This document shows, piece after piece, positions 32,575-48,032 of a DNA stretch of 64,000 bases (position 1 is its first letter; each line of letters begins with the position of its first letter). The translations under genes and the position numbers were made by a program. The notes beneath the pieces are model-generated. The model had not been told where the DNA came from, ran no database searches, and worked only from the letters and a program-made list of their open reading frames with translations. The stretch comes from Acidobacteriaceae bacterium (GTDB taxonomy: Bacteria > Acidobacteriota > Terriglobia > Terriglobales > Acidobacteriaceae): NCBI GenBank assembly GCA_035944135.1, contig DASZBM010000010.1:372001-436000 (forward strand), in the 5' to 3' direction.

Positions 32575-33276
32575 TCAGACGAATCCTTTCAGTCGCTCTC
32601 TTAGCGTCTGGTAAGCGCGGAACAGCAGCGATTTCGTTGCAGACTCGGAGAGCTTCAGCACCTCGCCGATCTGCTTGTAGTCCAAACCCTCATACTTGTG
32701 CATCAGAACGGCGGTTCTCTGCCGCTCCGGCAGCGCCATCACGTGCTGGCGGATGGCGTTCATCCGCTCCCGGCGAAGCAAATTCGCCTCGGCGCTGGGC
32801 GTCTCGTCGGCAACGTCCGGCGTCGTTCCGGTCTCGGCGTCCGGCTCATCCAGGTATACGGTCGAGGCCGAGCGCTCGTGCCGTGTATCGCGGGCGTGGT
32901 TTACGCCCAGGTTCGTGGCAATGCGGTAGAGCCACGTGCTGAACCGGGCCTCCGCCCGGTAAGTTTCCCGCGACCGGTAGACCCGGAGGAAGACCTCCTG
33001 GGCAAGCTCCTCGGCCACAGCCTGATTGTGGACCATCCTGAACATGAAATGGATGATCGGCTTGCGATATTTTGCCAGCAGTATATCGAAGGCCGCCATA
33101 TTACCGGCACGGAGCTCTAGCATGATCTCGGCGTCGGTCAGGGCAGAGAAGTCGCCCCTGGCCATTGCGGCCGCCCGCTCCTTAGCCCGCTCGGGGCTGA
33201 GATCGACCGCGGTGGCGGGACGGTCCGCCGGAAGATCATGACCCAGAACCCCGGGATGGAGTGCCAGCGTGCTCAT
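32575..33276 (-). CDS. ECF-family RNA polymerase sigma factor (RpoE/SigW-like)
   Basis: 233 residues from the ATG at 33276, chosen for its GAGGA ribosome site 6 bases upstream; the frame stays open to an ATG at 33378 that lacks one. Region 2 is at about 55-125 (AFDILLAKYRKPIIHFMFRM...FSTWLYRIATN) and region 4 at about 170-228 (LPERQRTAVLMHKYEGLDYKQIGEVL). The N-terminal 50 residues are extra. ECF factors direct RNA polymerase to stress or envelope promoters; the regulator is the zinc-finger anti-sigma factor encoded next. The target genes probably include this operon itself (inference). Confidence 0.94.
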   Translation of the reverse strand: MSTLALHPGVLGHDLPADRPATAVDLSPERAKERAAAMARGDFSALTDAEIMLELRAGNMAAFDILLAKYRKPIIHFMFRMVHNQAVAEELAQEVFLRVYRSRETYRAEARFSTWLYRIATNLGVNHARDTRHERSASTVYLDEPDAETGTTPDVADETPSAEANLLRRERMNAIRQHVMALPERQRTAVLMHKYEGLDYKQIGEVLKLSESATKSLLFRAYQTLRERLKGFV

Positions 33277-33538
33277 ATCTTCCTCAACCCCATCTTTGTC
33301 GCGAGGTTGCGCCGTCTCAACCGAATCTGCCGGTTTCGGCGGATCGGGCGGACGGTCTGCGGGGTTGGAACCGGTCATCCGGGGTATTGTACCCGTGCGG
33401 CTCTGCCGTCGAACAATGCCTGCAAACGAAGGCAGGATTGCGGCTGCTTTGAGTCGCGGGCGTGGCTATTCTCTGCTATTCTCAAGGAGAACGGGGGGCT
33501 GGCACGGTGGGTGCTCAGTTCCTGCTGCCGCAACAGGC

Positions 33539-33613
33539 GGGCGCATAACTCAGCGGTAGAGTGCCACCTTCACACGGTGGAAGTCGTAGGTTCGAATCCT
33601 GCTGTGCCCACCA
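33539..33613 (+). tRNA. tRNA-Val (anticodon CAC)
   Basis: Cloverleaf: acceptor GGGCGCA / TGTGCCC (one G-T pair), anticodon stem CCACC / GGTGG with loop TTCACAC, T arm GTAGG TTCGAAT CCTGC, and encoded CCA at 33611-33613. A block of less typical genes and pseudogenes begins right after it. Confidence 0.95.
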
Positions 33614-33651
33614 ACTCCAACTTCTTGAAATAACATCACTTGAGCGCGAGT

Positions 33652-34180
33652 CTACCGTTCCTCAGCTAATGGGGCAGGGCAGCTGCACCTTGGATGTGGA
33701 ATGTCGCAGTCAAGATCGGTGCCTGCCTTCAGGGTCAATGCAGAAGCCTGTGCGTTGTCGGCCGCTTCGTGATGGCCGCGCGCGATGTCCGCGACCTCAT
33801 CGCAGTTGGAGACGACTGGCCATTGCAGTGCCCGTCGTGGCGCAGGTTCTGTGGAGCAGAAGGTTGCTGTCGCAGGCGGCGTTTCCATCGATGGCGTTGT
33901 AGGCGCACATCACCGAGTCTCCATGCGCTTCGGTGATCGTCGCGCGGAAGCCGGGCAGGTTCGTGTCTTCGAGATCGTGCGGAAAAACGTCGACGTTGAA
34001 CTTGTGGCGCTGCGGTTCCGGCCCGCTGGGCACGGCGAAGTGTTTGGGCGTGGACACGGTCTTGAGGTAATGCGAATCGGAGCCCCGCATTCCCTCGACG
34101 AACGCAACACCGAGGCGCGCGGTGAGGAACGGTCTTCACCGAACGCCTCCATGCCGCGCCCCCAGCGCTGGTCACGGTCG
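33652..34180 (-). pseudogene. GH3 beta-glucosidase/xylosidase remnant with frameshifts
   Basis: On the minus strand three frames in turn give conserved GH3 segments: QRWGRGMEAFGED (from 34171), then, after a single missing base near 34136, RPFLTARLGVAFVEGMRGSD and LKTVSTPKHFAV through SVMCAYNAIDGNAACDSNLL, then after another shift near 33830, WPVVSNCDEVADIARGHHEA and LTLKAGTDLDCD to a stop at 33652. Only the middle of the catalytic domain remains, including the YNAIDG and VVSNCD regions that surround the nucleophile Asp. N- and C-terminal parts are missing. It is clearly decayed. Confidence 0.8.
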
Positions 34181-34380
34181 CACTACCACCCGCGCAATGG
34201 ACTCAACCAGCCGTATGCCTACAGCTATCTCTTCGGTTACGCAATCAATCTTCCGCGGGCACACCACAACGCTCACGCTGCCCAACGATCTGAACATCCG
34301 CATCTCGCGATCTCCGTCGCGCACACAGCGCGCGACGTAATGCCGGCTCGCCCGCTCGTCAGCTTCACGACACGCTCGAG
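34165..34380 (+). pseudogene. C-terminal remnant of a large glycosidase (GH38 alpha-mannosidase-like)
   Basis: On the plus strand, SRSHYHPRNGLNQPYAYSY and LFGYAINLPR continue, after a frameshift near 34255, into TTTLTLPNDLNIRI and, after another, into LAISVAHTARDVMPARPLV. The pattern 'NQPYAYSYLF... LP.G.TTLTLP.D..IRI.AISVA' resembles the C-terminal beta domain of bacterial alpha-mannosidase-type glycosidases. It abuts the GH3 remnant in opposite orientation, so the junction is a rearrangement scar. Family assignment is from memory and moderate. Confidence 0.5.
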
Positions 34381-34478
34381 AATGAATCGCAACCGAAGGA
34401 ATGATTGCGCCATACAATTCGATCATTCGCCTCCTGCACGAAGTGGTCGGGCCGCGAGGTCGCATCTGAGGGGATTGG

Positions 34479-35672
34479 ATGAACACTCGAGATACTCGTG
34501 AGTTAGCTGAGGCTCTGGCCTCGAACTGGCAGGCCGAAATGCGCGGATGGCACACCTACGGTGCGCTGGCTGACCGCGAGAGCGATCCACACCGCAAAAG
34601 TGTGCTGCGAGGACTCGCCCATGCCGAAAAACACCACGCGGCTCTCTGGGCCAGCCGAATGGAGGCGCTCGGTATTCCCACGCCGGAATACGAAGGCCCT
34701 CCGTCTGGCGATGCGGACTCATTGGCAGCTCGTGTTGGTGGCGATCAACTCGAGCTACGCCGGCTGGAGCTGGACGAGAGCCGCGACATCGCTCGGTACG
34801 GCAAGCAACTTCGCGATTTGGGCGACCAGGAGAGCATTGCGATTCTTGAGGAAGTCATCTCTGACGAGAAGGATCATTATCAGGCGCTCGGCCATCTGAT
34901 CCGTGGCCGGCGACCTGCTCCCCAGGTAACCACTGAAGAGGCGCAGCGGGCGCTGGATGAACTGGTGGCAGCTCGCGATGCTGGTCAGCCGCGCGCCGGA
35001 AGCTGGATTGGAGATGCTATTTACGGTGTGAACGATGGCCTCGGGGCGATCTTCGGGATCGTCTCGGGCGTCTCCGGTGCGACGCTCGGCAACAGCCACT
35101 TCGTCCTGATCGCAGGGCTGGCAGGAATGATTGCCAGTGCGCTTTCAATGGGCTCCGGAGCGTACCTGGCCGCAAAGAGCGAGCGTGAGATCTACGAGGC
35201 GGAGTATGCGAGGGAAGAAGAAGCTGTCACCCTGAACGAAGCCGAAGCTCGCGAACTCCTCACGCTGAGCTACCAGGTGCGTGGGCTGAACCGTGACGAC
35301 GCAGAACGCTTTGTCGAACACATCGCGAGCGACAAGAAGAGGCTGGTTAGCGCGCTCGCGCGTGAGCGGCTTGACACGACGGAAGAGGGCCTGACCAAAC
35401 CTATGGTCTCAGCGGTCTCCGGCGCGTTGTCCACGGCTATAGGTGCATTCATTCCGATTGTGCCGTTTTTCTTTACGTCCGGCTATACGGCCGTGATCAT
35501 CGCCGGAATCGTTTCACTCGCGGCGCATTTTGCCGTGGGCGCTGCCAAGTCCCTGATCACGATACGTTCATGGTGGAGCAGCGGGCTGGAGATGACGCTG
35601 ATTGGGGCGGTGGAGGGTGCGGTCACCTACGGTATAGGCATCGGGCTGGGTCACATCGGTGGTGGATCCTGA
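34479..35672 (+). CDS. mbfA: MbfA-type protein: rubrerythrin-like domain fused to VIT1/CCC1 transporter
   Basis: 397 residues. Residues 1-145 form a ferritin-like four-helix domain with the iron ligands E20, E50-K-H-H53 and E130-K-D-H133. Residues about 174-395 are a VIT1/CCC1 family transporter with five membrane segments (GDAIYGVNDGLGAIFGIVSG, IASALSMGSGAYLAAKSERE). In alpha-proteobacteria MbfA exports iron and protects from iron and peroxide stress; that role is inferred here. No Fur or Irr gene is next to it. The ATG has GGGGATTG upstream. Confidence 0.9.
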   Translation: MNTRDTRELAEALASNWQAEMRGWHTYGALADRESDPHRKSVLRGLAHAEKHHAALWASRMEALGIPTPEYEGPPSGDADSLAARVGGDQLELRRLELDESRDIARYGKQLRDLGDQESIAILEEVISDEKDHYQALGHLIRGRRPAPQVTTEEAQRALDELVAARDAGQPRAGSWIGDAIYGVNDGLGAIFGIVSGVSGATLGNSHFVLIAGLAGMIASALSMGSGAYLAAKSEREIYEAEYAREEEAVTLNEAEARELLTLSYQVRGLNRDDAERFVEHIASDKKRLVSALARERLDTTEEGLTKPMVSAVSGALSTAIGAFIPIVPFFFTSGYTAVIIAGIVSLAAHFAVGAAKSLITIRSWWSSGLEMTLIGAVEGAVTYGIGIGLGHIGGGS

Positions 35673-35790
35673 ACGGAATCGAGCTGCCACGCAGACTCGG
35701 CGTAGAAATGCGCAGGTTTAATGCCGTGTTGTTATGCTGGCGCATGCGGTAATAACTTTCGGACCGCAATTCTCAAGCTAGAGGAAAGCA

Positions 35791-36705
35791 ATGGCCAGGA
35801 TGGCTCCGAAGGAGCTTGCAAAGAAGATTGGTGAAGGGCTGCTGTCTTTCCCGGTGACCCACTTCACTGACGACTTCGCGTTCAATGAAGCTGCCTATCG
35901 TGAGCACATCGAATGGCTGCTGCAGCACGCGCCCGCCGGTCTCTTTGCCGCAGGGGGCACCGGAGAGTTCTTCTCGCTCACATTACCGGAGTTCAGGAGT
36001 GTTGTTGCAGCAGCTGTTCAGCAGACGAGTGGACGTGTTCCCGTAGTCGCGGGCTGCGGATACGGCACCGCTATCGCCAGGCAGTTTGCGCAAGAGGCGG
36101 AGGCAGTTGGCGCGGATGGTCTTTTACTGTTGCCTCCCTATCTCGTGAACAGTGAGCCCGCGGGACTGATAGCCCATGTGGAGGCCGTATGCTCGTCGAC
36201 ACAACTTGGCGTGATCTTCTACAACCGTGACAACGCGATCCTGAACGAGTCTGCGATTGAGCGCCTTTGTGAGCGCTGCCCGAACCTGGTTGGATTCAAA
36301 GACGGCGTTGGAGACATTGAGTTGATGACGCGCATCTACGCGAGGCTCGGCGACCGGTTGACTTATGTTGGTGGACTTCCTACAGCCGAGACTTTTGCAT
36401 TGCCGTATCTCGAGATGGGAGTGACGACGTATTCGTCCGCGATCTTCAATTTCCTGCCTGAGTTTGCGCAATCGTTCTATCAAGCTGTTCGGCGGCGCGA
36501 TCGAGACGAGGTATTCAAGCAGTTGCGCGAGCTCGTTCTTCCGTATATCGAGATCCGCAATCGGCGAAAAGGCTATGCGGTCTCGATTGTGAAGGCAGGC
36601 ATGCGGGCCGTCGGGCGACCCGCCGGCCCAGTGCGGTCGCCGCTTATGGACCTGGATCAAAGCGAGATGAATGCGCTGAGCCGTCTGGTTGCCGGACGAT
36701 CATGA
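35791..36705 (+). CDS. kdgD: 5-dehydro-4-deoxyglucarate dehydratase (KDG dehydratase)
   Basis: 304 residues, DapA/NAL-family barrel: GGTGEF at 55-60, Tyr144 in FYNRDN and Schiff-base Lys170 in VGFKDG. The FYNRDN motif and gene neighbours separate it from dihydrodipicolinate synthase. It converts 5-dehydro-4-deoxy-D-glucarate to 2,5-dioxopentanoate with loss of water and CO2, the common step after GudD and GarD. The ribosome site GAGGAA is 5 bases before the ATG. It is first in a four-gene operon. Confidence 0.93.
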
Positions 36706-36715
36706 GCGCGTTGCG

Positions 36716-38050
36716 ATGACCGCAGGCAAGCAAACGCACGTTCGATATCTGATCATCGCGATGCTGTTTATCGCGAGCAGCTTCAGTTACGGCGACCGTG
36801 TCGCGCTCTCGATTGCGGGCACGTCGATGGAGCGAGAGCTTACGCTGGATCCGGTGAAGCTTGGCTTGCTGCTCTCCGGTTTTGGTTGGGCCTATGTGGC
36901 GGGGCAACTGCCGTCCGGCGGATTGCTGGATCGCTTCGGCTCGAAGCGCATTTACGGGATGAGCATCATCGCCTGGAGCGTTTGTGCATTTCTGACCGGC
37001 TTTGCGGGCTACGTGGTGCCTGCGATGGCCTTCACCACGATCTTCGTGTTGCGGCTTATATCAGGGTTGGCGCAGTCGCCTGTCTTTCCTGGGAACGGTC
37101 GCATCGTCGCAGCCTGGTTTCCCACGGCCGAACGGGGAACCGCATCTGCGATTTTCAATTCGTCACAGTATTTTGCGCTGGTGATGTTCGGTCCGCTGTT
37201 TGGCTGGTTGACGCACAGTCATGGATGGCGAAGCTGCTTCTGGTTCATGGGTGTGTTCGGGTCTGTGCTCGCATTTGTGTGGTGGAAGACCGTATACAAC
37301 GTCAAAGAACATCCGCTGATCTCGTCCGCTGAGATAGAGCACATCGAGAAGGGCGGAGGACTCGCCAACCTCGATCAGCGGAAGGGCAAAGCCAATCCCG
37401 TGACCTGGAATGGAGCGAAGCAACTGCTGAGTCAGAGGATGCTGATTGGCATCTACATGGGCCAGTTCTGCATCACGACGCTGACGTACTTCTTCATCAC
37501 CTGGTTTCCGATCTATCTTGTGCAGGCCCGGCACATGTCCGTTCTACGCGGCGGGTTTGCGGTGGCTCTCCCCGCGCTCTGCGGCTCCGTCGGCGGAGTG
37601 CTCGGCGGCGTATGCTCGGATGGTCTGCTGCGGCACGGATACTCACTGACCTTTGCGCGCAAGGCGCCGATCATTGCAGGCATGCTGCTCTCGATCACGA
37701 TGATCGCTTGTAATTTCACGAACACGCAGAGCCTCGTCATGTTCCTGATGTCAGTTGCATTCTTCGGAAAGGGCTTCGGCGCACTTGGCTGGACGGTCAT
37801 CGCGGACGCATCGCCCAGGGAATTGATTGGGCTGAACGGCGGCATCTTCAATCTGTTCGGCAACACCGCAGGTATAACGACGCCAATCGTCATTGGATGG
37901 TTGGTGAAGAAGACCGGCTCGTTCAACGATGCACTGATCTTTGTCGCTGCGACAGCTCTTCTGGCGATCTTCAGCTACCTTGTTGTGGTCGGTGAGATTA
38001 AGCGAGTCGAGATTCGTCATCCGGCCCCTGCGACAGCCGTTGGAGAATGA
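36716..38050 (+). CDS. gudP: MFS transporter, glucarate/galactarate (GudP/ExuT-type anion:cation symporter)
   Basis: 444 residues from the ATG at 36716; a TTG further up would overlap kdgD. Twelve membrane segments. Family features: YGDRVALSIAGTSMERELTL, QLPSGGLLDRFGSKR in the loop between helices 2 and 3, and the ACS-type helix 4 to 5 region SPVFPGNGRIVAAWFPTAERGTASAIFNSSQYFA (in part). Members carry D-glucarate, galactarate or galactonate with protons. Ten bases after kdgD and three before gudD, so its substrate is well supported by context. Confidence 0.92.
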   Translation: MTAGKQTHVRYLIIAMLFIASSFSYGDRVALSIAGTSMERELTLDPVKLGLLLSGFGWAYVAGQLPSGGLLDRFGSKRIYGMSIIAWSVCAFLTGFAGYVVPAMAFTTIFVLRLISGLAQSPVFPGNGRIVAAWFPTAERGTASAIFNSSQYFALVMFGPLFGWLTHSHGWRSCFWFMGVFGSVLAFVWWKTVYNVKEHPLISSAEIEHIEKGGGLANLDQRKGKANPVTWNGAKQLLSQRMLIGIYMGQFCITTLTYFFITWFPIYLVQARHMSVLRGGFAVALPALCGSVGGVLGGVCSDGLLRHGYSLTFARKAPIIAGMLLSITMIACNFTNTQSLVMFLMSVAFFGKGFGALGWTVIADASPRELIGLNGGIFNLFGNTAGITTPIVIGWLVKKTGSFNDALIFVAATALLAIFSYLVVVGEIKRVEIRHPAPATAVGE

Positions 38051-38053
38051 TTC

Positions 38054-39403
38054 GTGAGCCTGGTTGAAGCAGTAGGAAAGGCGACCCCGGTCGTGACCCA
38101 GATGCGAGTAATTCCCGTCGCCGGTCAAGACAGCATGCTGCTCAATCTGAGCGGAGCTCATGCCCCATTCTTTACGCGAAACGTTGTGCTGCTGAACGAC
38201 AGCGCGGGGAACATGGGCGTCGGAGAGGTTCCTGGTGGCGAGAAGATTCGTCGTGTACTGGAATCCGCTCGTCAGCTTGTGAATGGAAAGCCAATTGCCG
38301 CGTATCAGGCTGTCCTGAATTCAGTCCGAGAACAATTCGCGGGCGAAGATGCTGGCGGGCGCGGGCTGCAAACATTCGATCAGCGGACCGCGATCCATGC
38401 GGTGACGGCGATCGAATCTGCAATGCTGGACCTGCTCGGAAAATTCTTAGGCCTTCCCGTTTGCGACTTGCTCGGAGAAGGGCGGCAACGCTCGAGTGTC
38501 GATGTACTCGGGTATCTGTTTTACATCGGCGACCGCGGCAAGTGCGATTTGCACTACCGCGACGAGAGCGCTGAGAAGGACGAATGGTTTCGACTGCGCA
38601 ATGAGGAGGCGCTGACAAACGAAGCGATCCTCCACCTTGCGGCTGCAGCGCAAGCGCGCTATGGATTTCGCGACTTCAAATTGAAAGGCGGAGTTTTCGA
38701 GAGCGCGCGCGAGATGGAAACTGTCGTTGCACTTGCAGAGCGCTTCCCGAAGGCACGAATCACGCTGGACCCAAACGGCGCATGGTCGCTCGACGAAGCG
38801 ATTCGCCTGTGCAGCGGAAAACAGAATGTCTTGTCCTATGCCGAAGATCCCTGCGGAGCAGAGAACGGCTTCTCAGGCCGAGAGATCATGGCGGAGTTCC
38901 GCTCCGCCACCGGTCTGCCGACGGCAACCAATATGATCGCGACCGATTGGCGTGAGCTCAAGCATGCCGTCCAGCTACATGCAGTGGACATTCCACTCGC
39001 GGATCCACACTTCTGGACGATGCAGGGTTCTGTGCGTGTCGCGCAGCTCTGTGAGGACTGGGGACTGACCTGGGGATCGCATTCCAATAACCACTTCGAT
39101 ATCTCACTTGCCATGTTCACGCATGTCGCCGCGGCCGCGCCGGGCAGAATCACGGCCATCGATACGCATTGGATATGGCAGGATGGGCAGCGTCTTACGA
39201 AAGAGCCGCTGCGAATCGCAGACGGAAGAATTCGCGTGCCGGATCGCCCAGGACTTGGAGTCGAGCTCGATCCCGAGCAGGTAGCGCGCGCTCACACGCT
39301 CTACAATGAGGTAGGATCCGGTGGCCGTGATGACACGCGAGCGATGCAGTTTCTCATCGCAGGCTGGCAGTTCGACAACAAGCGCCCCTGCATGGTTCGG
39401 TAA
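38054..39403 (+). CDS. gudD: Glucarate dehydratase
   Basis: 449 residues, GTG start, enolase superfamily. Catalytic KxK region FKLKGGVF, metal ligand region [18 protein letters not shown], and the catalytic His in [14 protein letters not shown]; the N-terminal [14 protein letters not shown] is a GudD hallmark. It dehydrates D-glucarate (and L-idarate) to 5-dehydro-4-deoxyglucarate, the KdgD substrate. Length is as in E. coli GudD. Confidence 0.95.
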
Positions 39404-39445
39404 GGATCGCGCTGACACTCCGCCGCTCATAGCAAGGATTTCGAG

Positions 39446-40999
39446 ATGTTAAGAGCAGAAGAATCACGTCCGCTGTATGTGCAGGTTCACCCCGACGACA
39501 ACGTTGCCATTGTTGTGAATGAAGGCGGTTTGCCCGCGGGGACGAAGTTCGAGTCGGGCCTGGTACTGACGGAAAACATTCCAGAGGCGCACAAAATCGC
39601 ACTCAGCGATATACATGCAGGCGCGCCAATCGTTCGCTACGGTTCTGTGATCGGGTTCGCTGAGGGAGAGATTTCAAAAGGAAGCTGGGTCCATGAAGAA
39701 AAGATGCGTCTGCCAAGCGCGCCTTCCCTGGACTCTCTCCCACTCGCAACTGCAGTGCCACCGGCATTGCCGCCGCTTGAGGGTTACACCTTCGAGGGCT
39801 TTGTCAACGATGACGGCTCCGTTGGAACAAAGAACATTCTCGGAATCACCACAACGGTGCAGTGCGTGGCCGCAACCGTCGATTACGCCGTGCGGCGAAT
39901 CCGACAGGAGATTCTTCCCCGCTATCCGAACGTGGATGATGTCATCGCGCTCACGCACACCTATGGGTGTGGCATAGCGACCGATGCGCCCAACGCCGAG
40001 ATTCCCATTCGCACATTGCGCAATTTGAGCTTGAATCCAAATCTGGGTGGCGCACCGATGGTGGTGAGCCTTGGTTGCGAGAAGCTGCAGCCGACACGCT
40101 TGATGCCGTCCAGCACACTGCCGATTCTTAACGCGACACCTTATGTGGTGCAGCTCCAGGATGAGAGACACCACAGCTTCGAAGAGATGGTCGCTGCCAT
40201 CATGCAGATGGCTGAGAAGCGCCTGGAGATGCTGAATGGCAGACACCGGACCGTGCGCCCTGCCGCGGACCTGGTGGTCGGCGTGCAGTGTGGAGGGAGC
40301 GACGCTTTCTCTGGTGTGACCGCGAATCCGGCCGTAGGCTACGCTACCGATCTCCTGGTGAGAGCCGGCGCGACAGTGATGTTTTCCGAGGTCACGGAGG
40401 TTCGCGACGCTGTGCACCTTCTCACAGCGCGCGCTGCAACCGAGGACATCGCACGCGACCTGGTTCGCGAAATGGCCTGGTATGACGCTTATCTGAGCAG
40501 CGGCGGCGTTGACCGCAGCGCAAATCCGAGCCCCGGAAACAAACGTGGCGGCCTGACGAATATTGTCGAGAAGACTTTGGGTTCAATTGCCAAAGCAGGC
40601 ACTTCGCCTATAGCGGGCGTCTTCGGCCCCGGCGAGAGGGTGACGAAGAAGGGCCTTATCTTTGCGGCGACGCCTGCAGGCGATTTTGTCTGCGGGACAC
40701 TGCAACTCGCCGCCTCGATGAACATGCATATCTTCACAACGGGGCGGGGAACTCCTTACGGACTCGCAATGGCTCCAGTCATCAAGGTGGCGTCACGGTC
40801 CGCGCTCGCCCAACGCTGGCGCGATCTTATCGACATTGATGCAGGAGCAATCGCCACAGGTAACGCCACCATCGAGCAGGTCGGTTGGCAGATATTCGAG
40901 ATGGTGCTGGACGTCGCGAGCGGCCGCCGGCAAACCTGGGCCGACCACTGGGGCCTGCATAACGACCTCGCTCTGTTCAATCCGACACCACTCACCTAA
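39446..40999 (+). CDS. garD: Galactarate dehydratase
   Basis: 517 residues of the UxaA/GarD family. N-terminal SAF domain (about 8-85: [19 protein letters not shown]), then the large domain with [35 protein letters not shown] and [16 protein letters not shown], typical for GarD rather than altronate dehydratase. It converts galactarate to 5-dehydro-4-deoxyglucarate. An AAGGA site lies before the ATG. The last four bases overlap the end of the convergent fapF-like gene. No dioxopentanoate (ketoglutarate semialdehyde) dehydrogenase gene follows. Confidence 0.93.
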
Positions 41000-42297
41000 T
41001 GACTCGCAACGTAGGATGGCCTCCATAGCGTCCATCGAATCGGAAGCGAGACTGAAAACTGCAGGTTTGGTGTATCCGGCGTGAGGCCAACGCCCATGCT
41101 CACGTCCATCAGCCGGCCCGGCGCGAACATATACGACGTGCCGATGCGCAGCGAACCTTCCACAAGGTATGACGCCGGCAATGCCTGGCCATTCAGTTTC
41201 GCCTGTCGCGTGAACTGCTGACTCCAGCCGACCGTCATCGACGTTTCCGGGTTCAAAGACAACACCGAACCCAACTGGAACCCGTACGCATCGCCCGGAC
41301 GAATATAACCGACCTCGCTGGTGATGTCCGGATTCGAAGGATCGCTGATGGGAATTGTGTGGTGCGCCGGGAAGTTCTTGGTGTAGGCAAGGCTGCCGAA
41401 AAACACAAGCGGATCATTCGTCTTCGCCGCGGTCAGGGACGCTGTTACACCATTGAACCCGGTTCCCAGCGATGTCTCGGAGCTGGTAAGGTCATACGAA
41501 TTCGTTCCAGTGCTCGACTTGAAATGCAGGCTCGCCAGAAGGTCCGGAACGCTGCCATGTTCGGTTTGGAATTGGTAGGACGCACCTCCCGAGATGTCAC
41601 CGAGTCCAAACTGGCTCTGTGTCGTCTGCGTTTCCGTGGCGTCAACCGTGCGATTCAGAACGTAGCCATAGGGAACATTGACGTCCAATTGCAGCTGCTT
41701 TGTAACGCCGAGTCGCGAAGTGACTGAATTGATCAGGATGTCTCTGCGCAACCGCTCAGAGGTGATATCTCCGACGACAAGAACGGGAAACAATGCGAAC
41801 CCATTAACCGTCACGTGGTCCGAAGAAAGGCTATAGTACGAAGCCGCATCATCAACCTCCATCAGGCCGGGTGGCAATAACAGACCACCACGCACCAGCA
41901 GGGCGCGATCCAGTGCTGCTGACGCGTGTCGCTCTGCCTCGTCGTACGTTGAGTTGCTTATCGTCGTCGAGAGCGAAGTTGTCGGTGCCGGCGCTATCGC
42001 GACGGCCGAGGGAACGGGGCCATGACCGGTCAGCCCGGTATTGTTAACCGCGTTCAGTCGCGACTCGAGCTCCTGCACGCGCTCCAGAAGATTGCGAATG
42101 ATGGCATCGCGCTCGCGCAGGGCCTGCTGAATCTTGACGTCGACGACGTCGGCTTGTGTGTTGCGTACTTGTGTCGAGCGTTCCGCCTGGGCTGCCGGGT
42201 TTACAGGCGCCGGCGCCGCGGTGGCGGACTGCGTTTGTGCGCTGACGCTCGCCGCAAGCAGCAGAACCGTGCCTACTACGAATGGCCGTAGAAACAT
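40996..42297 (-). CDS. fapF: FapF-like outer-membrane barrel with N-terminal coiled coil
   Basis: 433 residues from the ATG at 42297 (GGAGG 5 bases upstream). Signal peptide 1-20, a Pro/Ala linker, a coiled coil at 51-84 ([20 protein letters not shown]), then a beta barrel of the phenol-degradation MetA family type (about 130-433), with alternating strands such as [16 protein letters not shown] and a final strand [12 protein letters not shown]. In Pseudomonas, FapF has this same coiled coil plus barrel layout and exports the amyloid subunits FapB and FapC. It is the last gene of the operon that also encodes the protease and the repeat protein. Another substrate is possible, as related barrels import aromatics. 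Confidence 0.82.
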
Positions 42298-42310
42298 ATA
42301 GCCCTCCCCG

Positions 42311-42994
42311 TTAATACAAGCCATTGGTAGGCGTCGACACCCCAAGTGTCCGCGTAATGAAGGTCTCGTCAGGAATCAGCTTTGCCGAGGAGCTGATTTG
42401 CTTTGCGACCTGCATTCGCTCATCCGGAGGGTGAACGATAAAGACAACGCCGTTCTTCCACAGTTTCTGGAAGCGGTCTGCCTTCATCGTGACGTTGCCA
42501 AAGCCAGGATCAGCAAGAAATACTCTCCCCTGAATGATGCCGTTGACAACAACAAAATGATCGAAGCCCTTCAGGCGGATCGGTACGATGACTGCCGTCT
42601 TTTGGCTGGCTAGTTCGTCCATGGACATGTCGCTGAAGCCTTCAGCCGTGTATCCGCGCGCTTGCGCAAAATGCTTCATGTCCAAAAGAGAAAACCCGTG
42701 CCTCGCACGGACAAGGGCAGGGTCGGTTCGATGCAACATCCACACGACGATGTCGGTCTCAGGTGTGACGTCTCTGAATTGATACGTGAGGAGCGTGCTT
42801 AGTGCGGCAGCGCCGCAGCTTATGTCCCACCGTTGCCGTGTAACTCCCTCGTTGCGGATGTCCTTCAACGAGGCGACAGGCTTCCCCCACCCCGCGTCCT
42901 CCCCTGGTGCAGGCTTGTTCAGAGCCTGCGCCAGGGTGACGACGGACGATGCGCTCAGCAGTACTACTGCGATCCCGATCCTGAATGAGGTCAT
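42311..42994 (-). CDS. fapD: FapD-like C39-family cysteine protease
   Basis: 227 residues. Signal peptide about 1-24, then a papain-like C39 peptidase domain: Cys in RQRWDISCGAAALSTLL, His in GFDHFVVVNGI, Asp in FLADPGFGN, giving the full catalytic triad. Pseudomonas FapD is a C39-like periplasmic protease needed for Fap fibre export. The start overlaps the stop of the small amyloid-like gene by one base (TAATG), and 13 bases separate its stop from fapF. The substrate may be one of the operon's two secreted proteins, but that is inference. Confidence 0.85.
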   Translation of the reverse strand: MTSFRIGIAVVLLSASSVVTLAQALNKPAPGEDAGWGKPVASLKDIRNEGVTRQRWDISCGAAALSTLLTYQFRDVTPETDIVVWMLHRTDPALVRARHGFSLLDMKHFAQARGYTAEGFSDMSMDELASQKTAVIVPIRLKGFDHFVVVNGIIQGRVFLADPGFGNVTMKADRFQKLWKNGVVFIVHPPDERMQVAKQISSSAKLIPDETFITRTLGVSTPTNGLY

Positions 42995-43401
42995 TAATGC
43001 GATTTCCCGCTGAGGTTGGCCTGCGTGATGGTTCCAACAGTTGAGTTGATGTTTACGTTGAGGTTCAACAGTACGTTGATAGCGGAGTTCACAGCATTGA
43101 TGTTGATCAGCGAGCTCATGTTCTGCTGTGCGTTTCCACTAAGGTTGATCGACCCCACAGTTGTGTTGGTCGTCGTGCTGTTCGGTGCTTGAACCACAAG
43201 CGATCCAATACCTGAGACAAGGCCGTTTGCTGTGGGCACCTCGCCCGAAAAATTAATGACGTTGCCCGGACTGACGCTTGTCGTCACTCCGGCCGCCGTC
43301 ACCCGGTCAAGCATGCTGTCGTCGAGTGCCTTCTTCCTCGACTGCGACACACTTGTCTGTGTCGCCAGCAAAAGACCGATGACCAAAAGAGTGCGGTACA
43401 T
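42994..43401 (-). CDS. Small secreted amyloid-like protein (FapA/FapB/FapE position)
   Basis: 135 residues. Signal peptide about 1-20 (YRTLLVIGLLLATQTSVSQS), then the motif ALDDSMLDRVTAAG, then a Thr/Asn/Val/Ile-rich beta-prone region ending SLININAVNSAINVLLNLNV and GTITQANLSG. Both the D-M-V-T-A-(x)-G motif and the final VN.I/TQAN pattern also occur in the large repeat protein encoded upstream, so the two probably co-assemble or one nucleates the other. GAGGAG lies before the ATG. By order it could be a FapA-, FapB- or FapE-like subunit; sequence identity to those is too low to choose by eye. Confidence 0.72.
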   Translation of the reverse strand: MYRTLLVIGLLLATQTSVSQSRKKALDDSMLDRVTAAGVTTSVSPGNVINFSGEVPTANGLVSGIGSLVVQAPNSTTTNTTVGSINLSGNAQQNMSSLININAVNSAINVLLNLNVNINSTVGTITQANLSGKSH

Positions 43402-43439
43402 GATTACTCTCCTCGCGAGCAGTTACGCCGCGCGGCGGA

Positions 43440-43459
43440 GCCACCCCAAAGAGGGTGGC
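43440..43459 (-). other. Intercistronic hairpin within the amyloid operon
   Basis: Arms GCCACCC (43440-43446) and GGGTGGC (43453-43459), loop CAAAGA, just after the stop of the repeat protein gene. No T-run follows, so it may be a stability element or a weak attenuator that lowers expression of downstream genes relative to the first. Confidence 0.5.
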
Positions 43460-43473
43460 CCCGTCCGTGGTCA

Positions 43474-45165
43474 TCAGTGGGCTTGGGTAATGCTGTTGGT
43501 CTGGGTCAGCGTTGGGGTTGCGTTCATGTTGGCTGTGTAGGCAATGTTGACGCCGTTGGCAACCATGCTGCCTACTGCGTTGACAATGTTTACACCGGAG
43601 GCGCTCGATTCAGTCGAGCCGGCCAGGCTGAGCGAGTCCGTCTTGGTCGAGGTGATTGTCGAGCCATCAACCGCGATATTCTGCGCGACTGCATTCCCGA
43701 TTGTCGTCGGTCCCATGTAGGTCAGCGCCAGCGTGTCGTTGGTCGTGCTGCTGTGGGCGAAGTTGTCGGTTGCGGTCAGGCTGTGGCTGGCCGTGGTGTT
43801 GGTCGCGAAGTCATTCGAGGCCGTTGTGGTGTGGGACGAAGCTGACTGCTCAGCGGCTTGCTGGGCAAACGCGTTCGTGGTGGAGGTCGCAGCCTGCTGC
43901 TGTCCACCGATGGAGGAGTTGGTGGCATACGCGTTGGTGGTGGAGGTCGCAGCCTGCTGCTGTCCGCCCACTGACGAGTTTGTGTTGTATGCATTGTTCG
44001 TCGCGGTCGAGGCGCCGAAGCTGGCGTTCTGAGCCTTGTTGGACGAACTTGAAGCGTTAGCGGCGAACGCAGCGTTGTTGGTCAGAGCTGCGTTGTTGGA
44101 CAGAGCACCCGTCGAACTGGAGCTCGAGCTGCCCTGGCTGGCGGCGGCGCTGTTGTTGTTGGAGGTGGTTCCAGTACCGGTGGTTGTCGAAGTGTTCGTG
44201 TTGCTGCCCGTCGAGTTCGCAGCGTTGGTGCTGGCGGTGTTAGACGGGTTGCTGAACGTGTCAGTGCCTGCGATGGAGCTGCCACTGCTCGAGCCGGTCG
44301 AACTGCTGTTCTGATGCTGGGTGTTCGAGCTCGAGGAACCGTTGCTCGCGTGGTTGCTGCTGGCGTTGGCCGCGAGGTTGTCGGAGGCCGCGAGGTTATC
44401 GGTCGCATTCACTGCGCCGCTCGACGACTTCGACGACGACGACGCTTCCTGTCCGCCGACAGAGGCGTTGTGGCCGTATGTGTCGGATGTCGCAGTCGAG
44501 GCGCCAAAGCTGGAGCTCTCGTTCGCGCCATGTGCGAAGTTGTCGGTAGTTGCAGACGACGCGCCGAAGCTGGAGCTCTCGTTCGCGCCATGTGCGAAGT
44601 TGTCAGATGAAGACTCGCTCGCGCTCTGCGTATGAGAGCCAGTGTTCATGTAGCTCGACGTATCCGTCGTCGTGTGGTTGTAGCTTGACGCGGTGGTCAG
44701 GCTGGACGCATTCGTCGTGTTGTTGGTGTTGGCGTAGGTGTTATTGACCGTTAGATCTGGTCCGTTGCTGTAGTTGTGCAGCGTCGCATTCGAGTCCGGA
44801 TCAGACTGGCTGATGTCGTTGGCCTGGCTGACCTTCGCTCCGGAGTTGCTGTTTACGCTGCTCAGAGGAGACGCCCAGATGTTGACGCCGTCACCGACTG
44901 TGCTATCCGTGCCGGTTACGATGTTCACGCCGCTTGCGGAGCTCAGCGAGCTTCCGGCGAGAGAAGCGCTCGCTGAATCGTTTGTCGTTATCGTGGATCC
45001 AGCAGTGGCGATCGAATTATTGTCAGTCTGACCGGCCGTCACGTTGCTCATCTGGCTATCACTGATCGCATGAGCTTTCGACTTGCTGTTGTTGTTGCTT
45101 TGAGCTGCGGCAATCCCGGCAGCAAGGAAGGACGCTGTAATGAGAGTGCAAACAATTCTGTTCAC
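43474..45165 (-). CDS. Large Ser/Asn/Thr-rich secreted repeat protein, FapC-like functional amyloid candidate
   Basis: 563 residues from a GTG at 45165, preceded by GGAGG with 5 bases spacing and followed at once by a signal peptide (1-21, MNRIVCTLITASFLAAGIAA). Residues 32-45 carry ISDSQMSNVTAGQ. Residues 56-120 (GSTITTNDSASASLAGSSL, SSASGVNIV, VGDGVNIW, SQANDISQ) and 501-563 (GSTITSTKTDSLSLAGS, SSASGVNIV, VANGVNIA, TQTNSITQAH) are two copies of one motif. Between them is a low-complexity linker of S, N, T, A, G and Q with 20-residue repeats. No Cys after the signal. Imperfect beta-strand motifs separated by disordered linkers are the FapB/FapC design; fibre formation is predicted, not shown. 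Confidence 0.78.
   Translation of the reverse strand: MNRIVCTLITASFLAAGIAAAQSNNNSKSKAHAISDSQMSNVTAGQTDNNSIATAGSTITTNDSASASLAGSSLSSASGVNIVTGTDSTVGDGVNIWASPLSSVNSNSGAKVSQANDISQSDPDSNATLHNYSNGPDLTVNNTYANTNNTTNASSLTTASSYNHTTTDTSSYMNTGSHTQSASESSSDNFAHGANESSSFGASSATTDNFAHGANESSSFGASTATSDTYGHNASVGGQEASSSSKSSSGAVNATDNLAASDNLAANASSNHASNGSSSSNTQHQNSSSTGSSSGSSIAGTDTFSNPSNTASTNAANSTGSNTNTSTTTGTGTTSNNNSAAASQGSSSSSSTGALSNNAALTNNAAFAANASSSSNKAQNASFGASTATNNAYNTNSSVGGQQQAATSTTNAYATNSSIGGQQQAATSTTNAFAQQAAEQSASSHTTTASNDFATNTTASHSLTATDNFAHSSTTNDTLALTYMGPTTIGNAVAQNIAVDGSTITSTKTDSLSLAGSTESSASGVNIVNAVGSMVANGVNIAYTANMNATPTLTQTNSITQAH
43862..43984 (-). repeat. 60-base tandem repeat in the amyloid candidate gene (GGQQQAATSTTNA unit)
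   Basis: Two adjacent 60-base units encode NSSVGGQQQAATSTTNAYAT and NSSIGGQQQAATSTTNAFAQ; a third, weaker unit lies just beyond. The shared DNA core TGGAGGTCGCAGCCTGCTGC is identical in both units. Confidence 0.8.
44501..44604 (-). repeat. 60-base tandem repeat in the amyloid candidate gene (DNFAHGANESSSFGA unit)
   Basis: 44 bases at 44501-44544 and 44561-44604 differ at only one position and are exactly 60 bases apart, encoding DNFAHGANESSSFGA twice. The high DNA identity suggests recent duplication or gene conversion. Confidence 0.85.
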
Positions 45166-45740
45166 GAATTCCTCCACACATGTGCGTTGTTGAAGAACAC
45201 GACCAAACCCGCCGGCCGACACGGGCGGCGGAAGGGCCAATTGAGCGTGAACCCCCGTGCCCTCTTCACGAGAGGGTTGACGCGATCCGCGCAGGTGTCA
45301 TCTTTTAGGGGCCGAAAATTGGGGTTGAAGGCGGGGGGCTGGCGGAATGGAGTGGCTTAGCTCACTTCCTTCGCCAGTCGAGCGTAATCAACCTTCTTGC
45401 ACGTGAGCCCAGGGACCCGGAGAACTGCTCTCTTTTGCTCCGCCCATCCATCGCGCAATGGGGTAGATCGATCAGGCAAGACCGCGGCGCCGTCGCTTTG
45501 GCTTCGATCTCCTGGTTTCCTGATTCGAATCTAACCGTCGTACTGCAATTCCGTTGCCAAGCAGATCATGCCGTAATTCCGCAATTTTGTTCAAAATTCC
45601 GTGGGTAAATTGCAGGAAAATGCACTACTCAAAGGAACGACTTTGCTCCTGTGATGAAAGCCTTGTTACATTGGTGCGCTGTAAAGAGAACACCACCACC
45701 GAACATTCGTCAACTGTCTGTCCCACCACGACCGAGACGA
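45166..45740. other. Long leader/promoter region of the amyloid operon
   Basis: 575 bases between the GTG of the repeat protein and tRNA-Ile2, with no supportable gene. It holds an imperfect 15-bp hairpin (45339-45377), a small stem CCCTCT / AGAGGG (45259-45275) and an AT-richer part at 45540-45680. The promoter was not pinned down. A long structured leader would fit post-transcriptional control. Confidence 0.5.
45339..45377 (-). other. Imperfect hairpin in the amyloid operon leader
   Basis: Arms CTGGCGGAATGGAGTG (45339-45354) and CACTTCCTTCGCCAG (45363-45377) pair at 13 positions with one bulge and two mismatches; loop of 8. It lies about 175-210 bases before the start codon. Confidence 0.45.
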
Positions 45741-45817
<77 letters not shown>

Positions 45818-45908
45818 CACCCTGAACGTAGTCCTTCGCACTGCCATCCATGCCGCTGGACTACGACGTAAGTGCATTCTAAATTGCGTCGAACGTAATT
45901 ACCTATTG

Positions 45909-48032
45909 TTACTCCTCTAGCTCTTCACCGGCGGGCTTCTTCGCGCCGGCCGCAATCTTTTCTGAAATCGCCGGCGGCACAAAATCGTAGTGGTCCATCT
46001 CCATCCGGAAGCTGCCCCGGCCCTGGGTCATCGAGGTCAGCGTCGTTCCGTAGCTCAGCATCTCTGCCAGCGGCACCTGTGCATGCACCACGGTGCCAGT
46101 TCCTGCGCTATCCATCCCCTGCACGCGGCCTCTCCGGCTGTTCAGGTCGCCCATCACGGCGCCAGCGAACTCGTCCGGCATCTCGATCTCCACCTTCATG
46201 ATCGGCTCCAGCAGCGCAGGCTTTGCCTGTTCCATGGCGGCCCGAAACGCCAGCCGTCCGGCCATCTTGAACGCCATCTCGCTCGAGTCCACATCGTGGT
46301 AGCTGCCGTCATAGACGACCGCGCGAAAGTCGACGACCGGATACCCCGCGAGATATCCGCGCGCTGCCGACTCCTGAATCCCTTTCTCCACCGCCGGCAC
46401 AAACTGCCGCGGTATCGATCCGCCGAAGATGTCGTTCACGAACTCGAAGCCGCCGCCGCGCTCCATCGGTTCAATCCGGATCTTGCAGTCTCCAAACTGC
46501 CCATGTCCTCCCGTCTGCTTCTTGTGCCGTCCATGCCCCTGCGCCTTCGCACGCACCGTCTCGCGGTACGGCACCTTCGGCGCCTTCAGCGTCACCTCCG
46601 TATGGAACCGTCGCTTCAGCCGCGAAACGACGGTCTCGATGTGCATCTGCCCCGCGCCCGCCACCAGGAACTCGTTCGTTTGCGGATCCCGATAAAATTT
46701 CAGCATCAGGTCCTCTTCCATCAGCTTGTGAAGCGCAGGCGCCAGCTTGTCCTCGTCTGCACGAGACTTCGGCTCAATCGCGTAAGTCATCGCAGGCTCC
46801 GGGATCGGCGCAGCTTCCATCGCCACGTCATGTCCCTTTGCGCCCAGCGTGTCTCCCGTTTGCGACACGCGCAGCTTCGCCACGGCTCCCAGATCGCCCG
46901 CGTGCAACTCCGCAACCTCGGTCAACTTTCGTCCTTGAACAATCGAGAGATGGCTCAGCCGCTCCGTCTCGCCGCGCGTATAGTTCTCCACTGACGCGTC
47001 GTTCTTCACGCATCCGCTGATCACCTTGAAGAACGAAATCCTCCCGGCGAACGGATCGACCATCGTCTTGTACACGTACAGCGCGACCGGCTGGCTGTCG
47101 TCGATCTTGCGCATCTCCGTCTCACTCGATCCGTTGCCCGCAGCCTTGCCTGCCGCACGCATCGGCACTCCGGCGCGCTCCACCGGCGATGGCGCATAGA
47201 CCTTCAGAAAATCCAGCAGGTGGTCCGTTCCAACGTTCTGCAATCCACTCACATACAACACCGGAAAGATCCTGTCCTCACGAATCGCCTCATGCAGCGC
47301 GCCCACCAGGTGCTCCTCTGGAATCGTTCCCACCGCAAAGAACTCCTCCATCAGCTCGTCCTTGCCCTCAGCGACCAGTTCAATCAGCGCCTCATGCGCG
47401 GCCTTGGCATCCCCTTCCATCGCATGCGGAATCTTTCCCTTCGTCCCGCGTCCTTCACCACCGGGCGTATACAGATACGCCTCCATCGTCACCAGGTCGA
47501 CGACACCATGAAATCCCTTCTCGTCCACAATCGGCAGCTGCACCGGCACCACCTGCCGTCCCCATCTTTCACGCAGGCCCTCCAGCATCTCCATCCTTCC
47601 CGTGCGTGAGTCCGCCTTCGGATGGTCCACCTGGTTCATGACGACTACGCGCGGCAGTCCAATCTCCGCCGCATAATTCCACACTCGATCTGTGCCTGAC
47701 TCCACGCCCGTCTGCGCGTTCACAACCACCAGCGCCGTCTCTGCGGGCACCATCGCTGCGCGCGCCTCGTGCAGAAACATATGAAATCCCGGCGTGTCGA
47801 TCATGTTGACCTTAATGCCGTCCCACTCGGCGAACGCCACTGCGTTCGCCATCGTCATCTTGCGCGCAATTTCCTCCTCATCGTACTGAGTTACCGCGCC
47901 GCCATTCTCGCGGGAGGACGCCGCCGGCGACTTCGTGGTCTTCAGAATCGCCGAGATCAGTTCTGTCTTCCCGCTGTGTGCATGCCCCACGATGGCCACA
48001 TTCCTGACGTCAGCTCCCGCGTAAACCTTCAT
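45909..48032 (-). CDS. Elongation factor G paralogue (EF-G2-like translational GTPase)
   Basis: 707 residues from the ATG at 48032 (GGAG 8 bases upstream). G1 GHAHSGKT, G3 DTPGFH, G4 NQVD (Gln replaces the usual Lys of NKxD) and G5-like VSGLQ, followed by domains II to V of EF-G (GQMHIETVVSRLKRRF, PKVPYRETV, GHGRHKKQTGGHGQFGD, GYPVVDFRAVVYDGSYHDVDSSE). These features fit the EF-G-like/EF-G2 branch, not the housekeeping FusA, which normally sits in the str operon with rpsL and rpsG. Roles proposed for such paralogues include ribosome recycling and growth under stress. The substituted G4 residue may alter nucleotide preference. Confidence 0.9.
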   Translation of the reverse strand: MKVYAGADVRNVAIVGHAHSGKTELISAILKTTKSPAASSRENGGAVTQYDEEEIARKMTMANAVAFAEWDGIKVNMIDTPGFHMFLHEARAAMVPAETALVVVNAQTGVESGTDRVWNYAAEIGLPRVVVMNQVDHPKADSRTGRMEMLEGLRERWGRQVVPVQLPIVDEKGFHGVVDLVTMEAYLYTPGGEGRGTKGKIPHAMEGDAKAAHEALIELVAEGKDELMEEFFAVGTIPEEHLVGALHEAIREDRIFPVLYVSGLQNVGTDHLLDFLKVYAPSPVERAGVPMRAAGKAAGNGSSETEMRKIDDSQPVALYVYKTMVDPFAGRISFFKVISGCVKNDASVENYTRGETERLSHLSIVQGRKLTEVAELHAGDLGAVAKLRVSQTGDTLGAKGHDVAMEAAPIPEPAMTYAIEPKSRADEDKLAPALHKLMEEDLMLKFYRDPQTNEFLVAGAGQMHIETVVSRLKRRFHTEVTLKAPKVPYRETVRAKAQGHGRHKKQTGGHGQFGDCKIRIEPMERGGGFEFVNDIFGGSIPRQFVPAVEKGIQESAARGYLAGYPVVDFRAVVYDGSYHDVDSSEMAFKMAGRLAFRAAMEQAKPALLEPIMKVEIEMPDEFAGAVMGDLNSRRGRVQGMDSAGTGTVVHAQVPLAEMLSYGTTLTSMTQGRGSFRMEMDHYDFVPPAISEKIAAGAKKPAGEELEE

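Follow-up and report, generated by a model that had tools for sequence, protein, structure and literature searches.

Does a run of four linked genes in an acidobacterial genome encode the Fap functional amyloid system of Pseudomonas (fapABCDEF), or a different fibre system built around the same machinery? The genes lie in the window, by which we mean the whole 64,000-nucleotide stretch analysed (Acidobacteriaceae bacterium, assembly GCA_035944135.1, contig DASZBM010000010.1, positions 372,001–436,000, forward strand), and an original prediction made from the letters alone had read them as a Fap-like amyloid operon. All four are present on the minus strand, running from window position 45165 to 40996: a large repeat subunit, a small subunit, a C39 cysteine peptidase and an outer-membrane barrel. 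Judged by sequence and predicted structure, this appears to be a Fap-like fibre-secretion operon with homologous machinery, but not canonical Fap, and we consider the full reading, that it is a non-canonical system whose secreted proteins bear C39-processed leaders, to be probable. The Fap part list first proposed held for the FapF/FapD-type machinery, its fold and the gene order, but not for the remainder: FapE and FapA are absent and the subunits are not detectably FapB or FapC. The group of related operons to which the window belongs is here called T3.

The barrel gene (40996..42297, minus strand) encodes a FapF-type outer-membrane transporter of 433 residues, starting at the ATG at 42297, with the mechanical open reading frame (ORF) opening upstream at 42345. 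It matched the NCBIfam FapF model (NF058560) at 5.5e-33 and FilC at 1.5e-14, both below the curated cut-offs (114 versus 700 bits for the FapF equivalog). A profile of 15 barrel sequences searched against the PDB retrieved Pseudomonas FapF structures at 1.2e-30, the remaining matches having E ≥ 0.42. AlphaFold, with 30 aligned sequences, returned a model (mean predicted local distance difference test score (pLDDT) 79, predicted template modelling score 0.64) that follows the order of FapF: a signal helix, a helix at residues 45–85 (42043..42165), a linker whose segment 88–114 has pLDDT below 50, a helix at residues 115–136 in the plug position (41890..41955) and a β-barrel domain with strands from 145 to 423 (41029..41865). 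By analogy with FapF, helix 45–85 would be the coiled-coil segment that had been predicted ahead of the barrel; a 13-residue stretch in its region is invariant in 15 aligned sequences. Among FapF residues mapped onto the protein, R157 is kept and E111 is replaced by Asp (numbering inferred from the construct). Foldseek ranked FapF chains (5o65/5o67) 1–18 (best 7.9e-22, to 5o67; target template modelling score ≤0.87) and the COG4313 porin 4rl8 at 19–20 (7.5e-14). An identity as a COG4313/MetA aromatic-compound porin, the risk named at the outset, was rejected because FapF chains outrank 4rl8 and the long N-terminal helix is present.

The peptidase gene (42311..42994, minus strand; 227 residues), separated from the barrel gene by 13 bases, encodes a predicted periplasmic C39 cysteine peptidase of the FapD/FilB family (Pfam PF03412, 3.2e-15). 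Its Gln54, Cys60, His146 and Asp162 are invariant in 15 of 15 aligned sequences, the window included, so the intact Cys/His/Asp of the original prediction was borne out. The best NCBIfam match was FilB (8e-35), followed by FapD (2.6e-30), both below curated cut-offs (105 versus 330 bits for the FapD equivalog); the proposed profile comparison thus found FapF and FapD as expected, but short of the cut-offs and with the peptidase slightly closer to FilB. Against the PDB, the peptidase profile matched C39 domains of bacteriocin-type exporters (best 1.5e-6). With the C39 domains of bacteriocin ATP-binding cassette (ABC) exporters it shares the fold, the Cys/His/Asp residues and the leader spacing, whereas the window enzyme is a free, predicted periplasmic protein with no ABC-exporter domain in the Pfam scan, and its substrates would arrive by Sec (signal peptides of the subunits and the peptidase were assessed by eye).

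The two upstream genes encode the putative fibre proteins. The large subunit precursor (43474..45165, minus strand; 563 residues from a GTG start) comprises a Sec signal, a C39-type leader, an N-terminal repeat (residues ~48–100, 44866..45024), a long Ser/Asn/Thr/Ala linker and a C-terminal repeat (residues ~485–545, 43531..43713). Profile–profile comparison with hhalign indicated that the two repeats are homologous (98.8%, 1.3e-16), and the mature chain is 21.9% Ser, 15.5% Ala, 15.3% Thr and 13.2% Asn, with about 6% charged residues. The small secreted subunit (42994..43401, minus strand; 135 residues) carries one NINAVNSxINVLLNLNVNI repeat and weakly matches the C-terminal repeat of the large subunit (62%, 7.5e-5). 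The predicted repeats are therefore real, but their amyloid-style motifs are not detectably Fap repeats: a homology between T3 and FapB/C repeats that looked plausible by eye (SLSGSAL..ASG versus SLGGNSL..SSG) failed both hidden Markov model (HMM) and profile–profile tests. No Pfam or NCBIfam family was found for the window large subunit at E ≤ 1, and NCBIfam scans of 14 large and 15 small subunits stayed at noise level (best 0.0072 and 0.033, respectively). Two arrays, each of about two 60-base tandem repeats (43864–43984 and 44481–44604), lie in the linker and suggest its expansion by repeats.

The gene set is not a chance assembly, since the same four genes occur in the same order in 15 of the 15 loci with the peptidase in g28, an Edaphobacter-group genus. 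Searching named GTDB contigs for two peptide patterns yielded 43 loci, and HMMs found the four-gene order in all 18 acidobacterial ones (L053–L070), at least five of which are the same genomes as the g28 loci; the order thus recurs in acidobacterial relatives, as had been anticipated. HMMs also identified the module in 13 non-acidobacterial loci (L071–L081, L083 and L090; proteobacterial, desulfobacterial and 'Deltaproteobacteria', for example, Marinobacter iranensis and Desulfuromusa), with the small subunit in 13 of 13. These loci vary. Large-subunit genes number from one to three; they run on the other strand in L071 and flank the small gene in L074 and L090, and in L075 and L080 the large subunit is reduced to a fragment at the contig start. 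Where a second or third large subunit is present, its match is weak in several loci. The terminal repeats of T3 large subunits are conserved across phyla.

Trees of 79 peptidases and 77 barrels recovered the same groups (24 listed loci were dropped as near-duplicates, fragments or exporter-like rows; the trees were quick, with support from the Shimodaira–Hasegawa-like approximate likelihood ratio test only, quoted below, and long-branch warnings in both). T3 took in 23 rows from acidobacteria and 13 from elsewhere, with support of 97 for the barrels and 98 for the peptidases; among the peptidases, L085 and L086 also fall within it. Fap comprised 16 rows and two Paraburkholderia rows (96 peptidase, 98 barrel), a group termed T4 included two Massilia rows (99 in both), and the Fil type, assigned by gene content and leader, received 100 in both and excluded the window peptidase and barrel, so Fil membership was rejected. 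Canonical Fap membership was likewise ruled out, by the repeats, the trees and the absence of FapE: no gene lies at the FapE position, between C39 and barrel, in the window, and the two are adjacent in relatives too. For comparison with Fap, an even draw from the Marinobacter phylum gave FapD-model matches at E ≤ 1e-15 in 34 of 349 genomes (7 of 349 above the curated cut-off), from which 40 neighbourhoods were taken.

Every complete T3 subunit carries, directly after its Sec signal, the motif L-x-D-x-x-L-D-x-V-T-A-G or a near variant, with hydrophobic residues at −12, −7 and −4 and small residues at −2 and −1, right before the mature chain; the small residues hold across the listed T3 leaders except one with Pro at −2. 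The full double-glycine leader consensus reads LSxxELxxIxGG. In bacteriocin precursors, double-glycine leaders cut by C39 domains end in GG or GA according to PMC10233263 and in GG, GS or GA according to PMC10986499. In the window, the leader is ISDSQMSNVTAG on the large subunit (residues 34–45, 45031..45066, minus strand) and LDDSMLDRVTAA on the small subunit (residues 26–37, 43291..43326, minus strand), and it is present in 14 of 14 aligned large and 15 of 15 aligned small subunits, window included. It was found in 100 of 102 T3 subunit sequences, a set that counts some genomes twice, versus 1.2% of shuffled segments, and both misses are at contig starts. A position-specific scoring matrix (PSSM) from 20 distinct acidobacterial leaders scored above 4 in 37 of 39 sequences from L071 onwards (one of the 37 matching away from its leader, and two of the 39 coming from L085 and L093), and 13 of 1,034 background ORFs reached 5. 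In the reverse direction, a PSSM from L071–L090 leaders only ranked the window small and large subunits first and second among 388 window ORFs (20.6 and 17.1; next 5.8). The top three background ORFs lie in L085 (Crenothrix polyspora), L093 (Methylobacter) and L086 (Granulosicoccaceae), contigs with a FapD-family peptidase, small secreted proteins with the TAG leader and no recognised large subunit; these small proteins are possible further Sec plus C39 substrates.

Across the clades, leader type tracks the peptidase clade, including ELxxLRGR on FapE; the regular expressions were taken from the same loci, so this count is an association and not an independent test. Leaving the window aside, TAG-type leaders occurred in 35 of 35 T3 loci, RG-type leaders in 12 of 12 T4 loci (that of L172 probably spurious) and 15 of 16 Fap loci, VTGQ-type leaders in four of six Fil loci, and some leader type in seven of nine other loci. 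For all clades together, a leader of any type was found on the same strand in 73 of 78 loci versus 12 of 78 on the opposite strand. FapE or its counterpart has the leader spacing in 23 of 24 cases (16 canonical, 8 FapE-like; the FapE proteins of L151, L154 and L157 are excluded and the L165 match is probably not the true site) versus 1.8% of shuffles, with LKDQELATLRGR, LSDSELGQQRGR and LSDPELSEYRGG as examples. This differs from the published view: PMC5557850 reports no canonical C39 sequences in Fap proteins and suspects FapE from its GG/GA and mass spectrometry, whereas a spaced leader motif is found here in FapE.

These data allow us to propose how the T3 system may work. Sec would export both subunit precursors to the periplasm, where the C39 peptidase would recognise the double-glycine-type leader just inside the signal-peptide cut and cleave after TAG or TAA; the leader is predicted to mark the substrate of a FapD-type peptidase, and we hold with good confidence that C39 acts on it. 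The mature Ser/Asn/Thr-rich, nearly uncharged chains would then pass, still unfolded, through a trimer of the FapF-type barrel, with the coiled coil and plug helix gating its opening, and export of the subunits through the barrel seems to us very likely. Outside the cell, the two repeats of the large subunit would stack into a β-rich, probably amyloid fibre, and retention of the terminal repeats across phyla is as expected for stacking. The one-repeat small subunit would seed or anchor that fibre, making it a possible nucleator or anchor, and the product would be a cell-surface or matrix fibre with a presumed role in biofilm. That the subunits form a polymer is likely; that the fibre is cross-β, and so amyloid as we infer from the analogy with Fap, is favoured with less assurance. 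As every complete T3 subunit bears the leader, processing would gate the fibre proteins themselves, whereas in canonical Fap it would be FapE that is gated.

Experiments in Pseudomonas agree in part with such a route. There, FapD works in the periplasm, a C38A substitution abolishes secretion and the active-site Cys is needed for FapC secretion, and of the Fap proteins only FapE was fully processed at its N-terminus (PMC5557850). Papers from 2017 and 2018 describe FapD's substrate as unclear or undetermined (PMC5557850 and PMC6173800), and a 2025 review names FapE and the periplasmic portion of FapF as the proteins that FapD is thought to process (PMC12822426).

Several observations weigh against reading the operon in this way. 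An HMM of our own, from 32 canonical FapB/C repeats cut by regular expression from 29 FapB/FapC-position proteins, recovered 28 of the 29 (largely its own training set) and, at E < 1e-3, none of 105 T3 subunit sequences, a set with some genomes from two sources, fragments and two sequences from L085 and L093; the best T3 match had E 1.8 and the best shuffled sequence 0.088. By hhalign, T3 repeats or the small subunit reached ≤5% against canonical FapB/C repeats. With no detectable FapB/FapC homology, amyloid cannot be inferred from the subunits, and the AlphaFold model of the large subunit (mean pLDDT 39, no confident fold) is unusable. On the barrel, K401 of the FapF E98–K401 salt bridge is, in our own mapping, probably not kept. 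The leader regular expressions were drawn after the sequences had been viewed (the PSSM tests used held-out sets), one spurious string stands among the 33 training leaders of the reverse PSSM, and classes cross over, with RG-type leaders in two of 13 proteobacterial T3 loci and TAG-type leaders in one of 16 Fap loci. Last, mass spectrometry in PMC5557850 detected no processing of FapA–D, so that FapD substrates would differ between the systems, and the leader could serve as a docking tag without cleavage.

The rival that survives best, although we judge it unlikely, is that the operon makes a non-amyloid surface filament or adhesin, comparable to the fil genes annotated in Acinetobacter as a 'putative pilus' (FilB NF050078, FilC NF050079). 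FilB is the best NCBIfam match of the window peptidase, Fil-type operons also combine C39, a FapF-like barrel and a secreted protein with a glycine-type leader, and the low-complexity linker would suit a brush or adhesin; yet the Fil leader ends in TGQ, the other genes differ, Fil forms a distinct clade with full support and the T3 terminal repeats are kept across phyla, as stacking would predict. T4 (L160–L173) stands in a similar relation to the window: several of its loci have an Asn/Ser-rich low-complexity large protein, a small protein, C39 and a FapF-like barrel, with leaders, but these leaders mostly end in RGG or RGR, a FapE-like gene follows C39 in several and the clade adjoins Fap. 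A link between the window small subunit and the T4 small protein found no support (0.6%, hhalign).

We regard it as improbable that the operon truly belongs to the Pseudomonas Fap family, with FapB, FapC and FapE that have diverged past recognition. The two systems do share FapD and FapF homologs, glycine-type leaders and a compatible layout: a coiled-coil/plug-helix barrel encoded last, a periplasmic C39 and subunits upstream of fapD. Set against this, the T3 and Fap clades are separate in both trees, no T3 subunit matched the FapB/C repeat HMM, the large subunit has two terminal repeats and FapB/FapC three imperfect ones (PMC12822426), no gene lies between C39 and barrel, and both equivalog cut-offs were missed. 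The lack of FapA is of less use here: no further minus-strand ORF of at least 60 residues lies between the operon and the upstream tRNA and elongation-factor-G-like (EF-G-like) gene, but FapA is often missing from accepted fap operons, so its absence is not disqualifying (PMC3792158).

Equally improbable, in our estimate, is that C39 leaves the leader-like motif uncut and the motif serves as a tag for docking or for a chaperone. Catalytically inactive C39-like domains do serve as substrate chaperones, and the published mass spectrometry saw no cut in FapB or FapC (PMC5557850); however, the catalytic residues are invariant in the aligned peptidases, the FapD C38A result shows that secretion depends on that cysteine, and the small −2/−1 residues are kept in the listed leaders but for the one Pro. 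That a porin and a bacteriocin-type peptide system are neighbours by chance, as the generic Pfam labels (Phenol_MetA_deg and Peptidase_C39) might suggest, is scarcely credible given the conserved four-gene order, the same groups in both trees, the lack of an ABC-exporter domain on C39, the Sec-type signals seen by eye and the large low-complexity subunit. Beyond the operon itself, we lean slightly towards a wider reading, that FapD/FilB peptidases act generally as periplasmic maturases in a 'Sec plus C39' route: they would remove a second, double-glycine-type leader from Sec-exported proteins before exit by a FapF-type barrel. At least four lineages (Fap, T4, Fil and T3) would share this route, with a leader ending particular to each (RGR/RGG, TGQ or TAG) and apparently unrelated subunits; FapE would then be the substrate of Pseudomonas FapD, and T3 a second amyloid-type system missed by FapB/C-repeat screens.

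In the genomes surveyed, the operon is patchy. The FapD model (E ≤ 1e-6) matched C39 proteins in 46 of 299 genomes of the class, most of the weaker matches in open frames of about 700 residues, as expected for ABC exporters. Matches below 1e-22 came from the window, 15 g28 genomes, G170 and G317. At least five g28 genomes had no match and at least one had an exporter-like C39 only, and none of the 27 other genomes of the window's own genus had a C39 protein match. In further surveys, whose recall may be reduced by an initial pass that scored no more than 12 or 17 candidates in each genome, the small subunit was found in 11 of 347 genomes across the phylum (the window and 10 of g28) and, rarely, in even samples of two other phyla: in one of 349 of the Marinobacter phylum (the seed genome) and in two of 247 of the Desulfuromusa phylum (one seed, one partial match at 4e-7). 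One g28 locus, on a single-contig assembly, has its repeat-subunit gene split over two frames (G241, L041:7640-9315) in an otherwise intact operon, by either sequencing error or inactivation. In G170, a FapF-like barrel ORF (L039:9486-10859), whose N-terminal region holds what looks like an excisionase-type helix-turn-helix segment, lies next to a C39 peptidase that a stop codon interrupts. In G317, of the same class, a 9.3-kb contig (L034, G317:C243:1-9306) carries all six genes of a fap-type operon, with the positions FapA–FapF filled; this may be either a genuine second Fap in acidobacteria or a contaminant from binning. Elsewhere, Marinobacter iranensis (G342) holds three FapD-family operons in one genome (L072, T3; L164, T4; L174, Fil type), and the cable bacterium Candidatus Electrothrix gigas (L089) has a FapF-like barrel followed by a FapD-like peptidase.

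Upstream of the operon are a tRNA-Met (45741–45817, same strand, 575 bases away) and the EF-G-like gene, and downstream is a convergent altronate-dehydratase-like (uxaA-like) gene whose 3′ end overlaps that of the barrel gene by 4 bases, both protein genes being named by reading the sequence. An empty-site comparison is uninformative, since the uxaA-like gene also has a patchy distribution (3 of 28 genomes). A repeat scan of 33000–46000 listed no direct repeat of the tRNA-Met 3′ end and so gave no sign of an integrated element. Recent horizontal gain is unsupported: local base composition is ordinary, no repeat of the tRNA end was listed, and both trees place the window closest to the locus of a Granulicella metagenome-assembled genome (L054), which in the peptidase tree sits where the acidobacterial clade is unresolved at its base. 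The absence of matches in the genus may reflect differential loss or a transfer of greater age.

The original description of Fap as mainly proteobacterial is outdated. Fap was reported from three proteobacterial classes, with FapD and FapF likely to belong to larger families (PMC3792158); co-located fapD/fapF homologs were reported in 2018 from five further phyla (PMC6173800), among which Acidobacteria may be counted, and Fap operons in 2025 from Desulfobacterota, Nitrospirota and Bacillota (PMC12822426). The surveys in PMC12822426 and PMC12392863 require FapB/C repeats. Among the matches listed from the open-licence PMC literature (titles and abstract openings), none describes the T3 system, and no paper describing the fil system is apparent.

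Together, these results place FapD/FapF-type machinery alongside one or more subunit families that surveys built on repeats would probably miss, and this pairing runs counter to the idea that Fap is fixed in evolution. The leader yields an exact predicted cut site both in the window system and in FapE, and the operon offers a candidate matrix fibre for Edaphobacter and its relatives.

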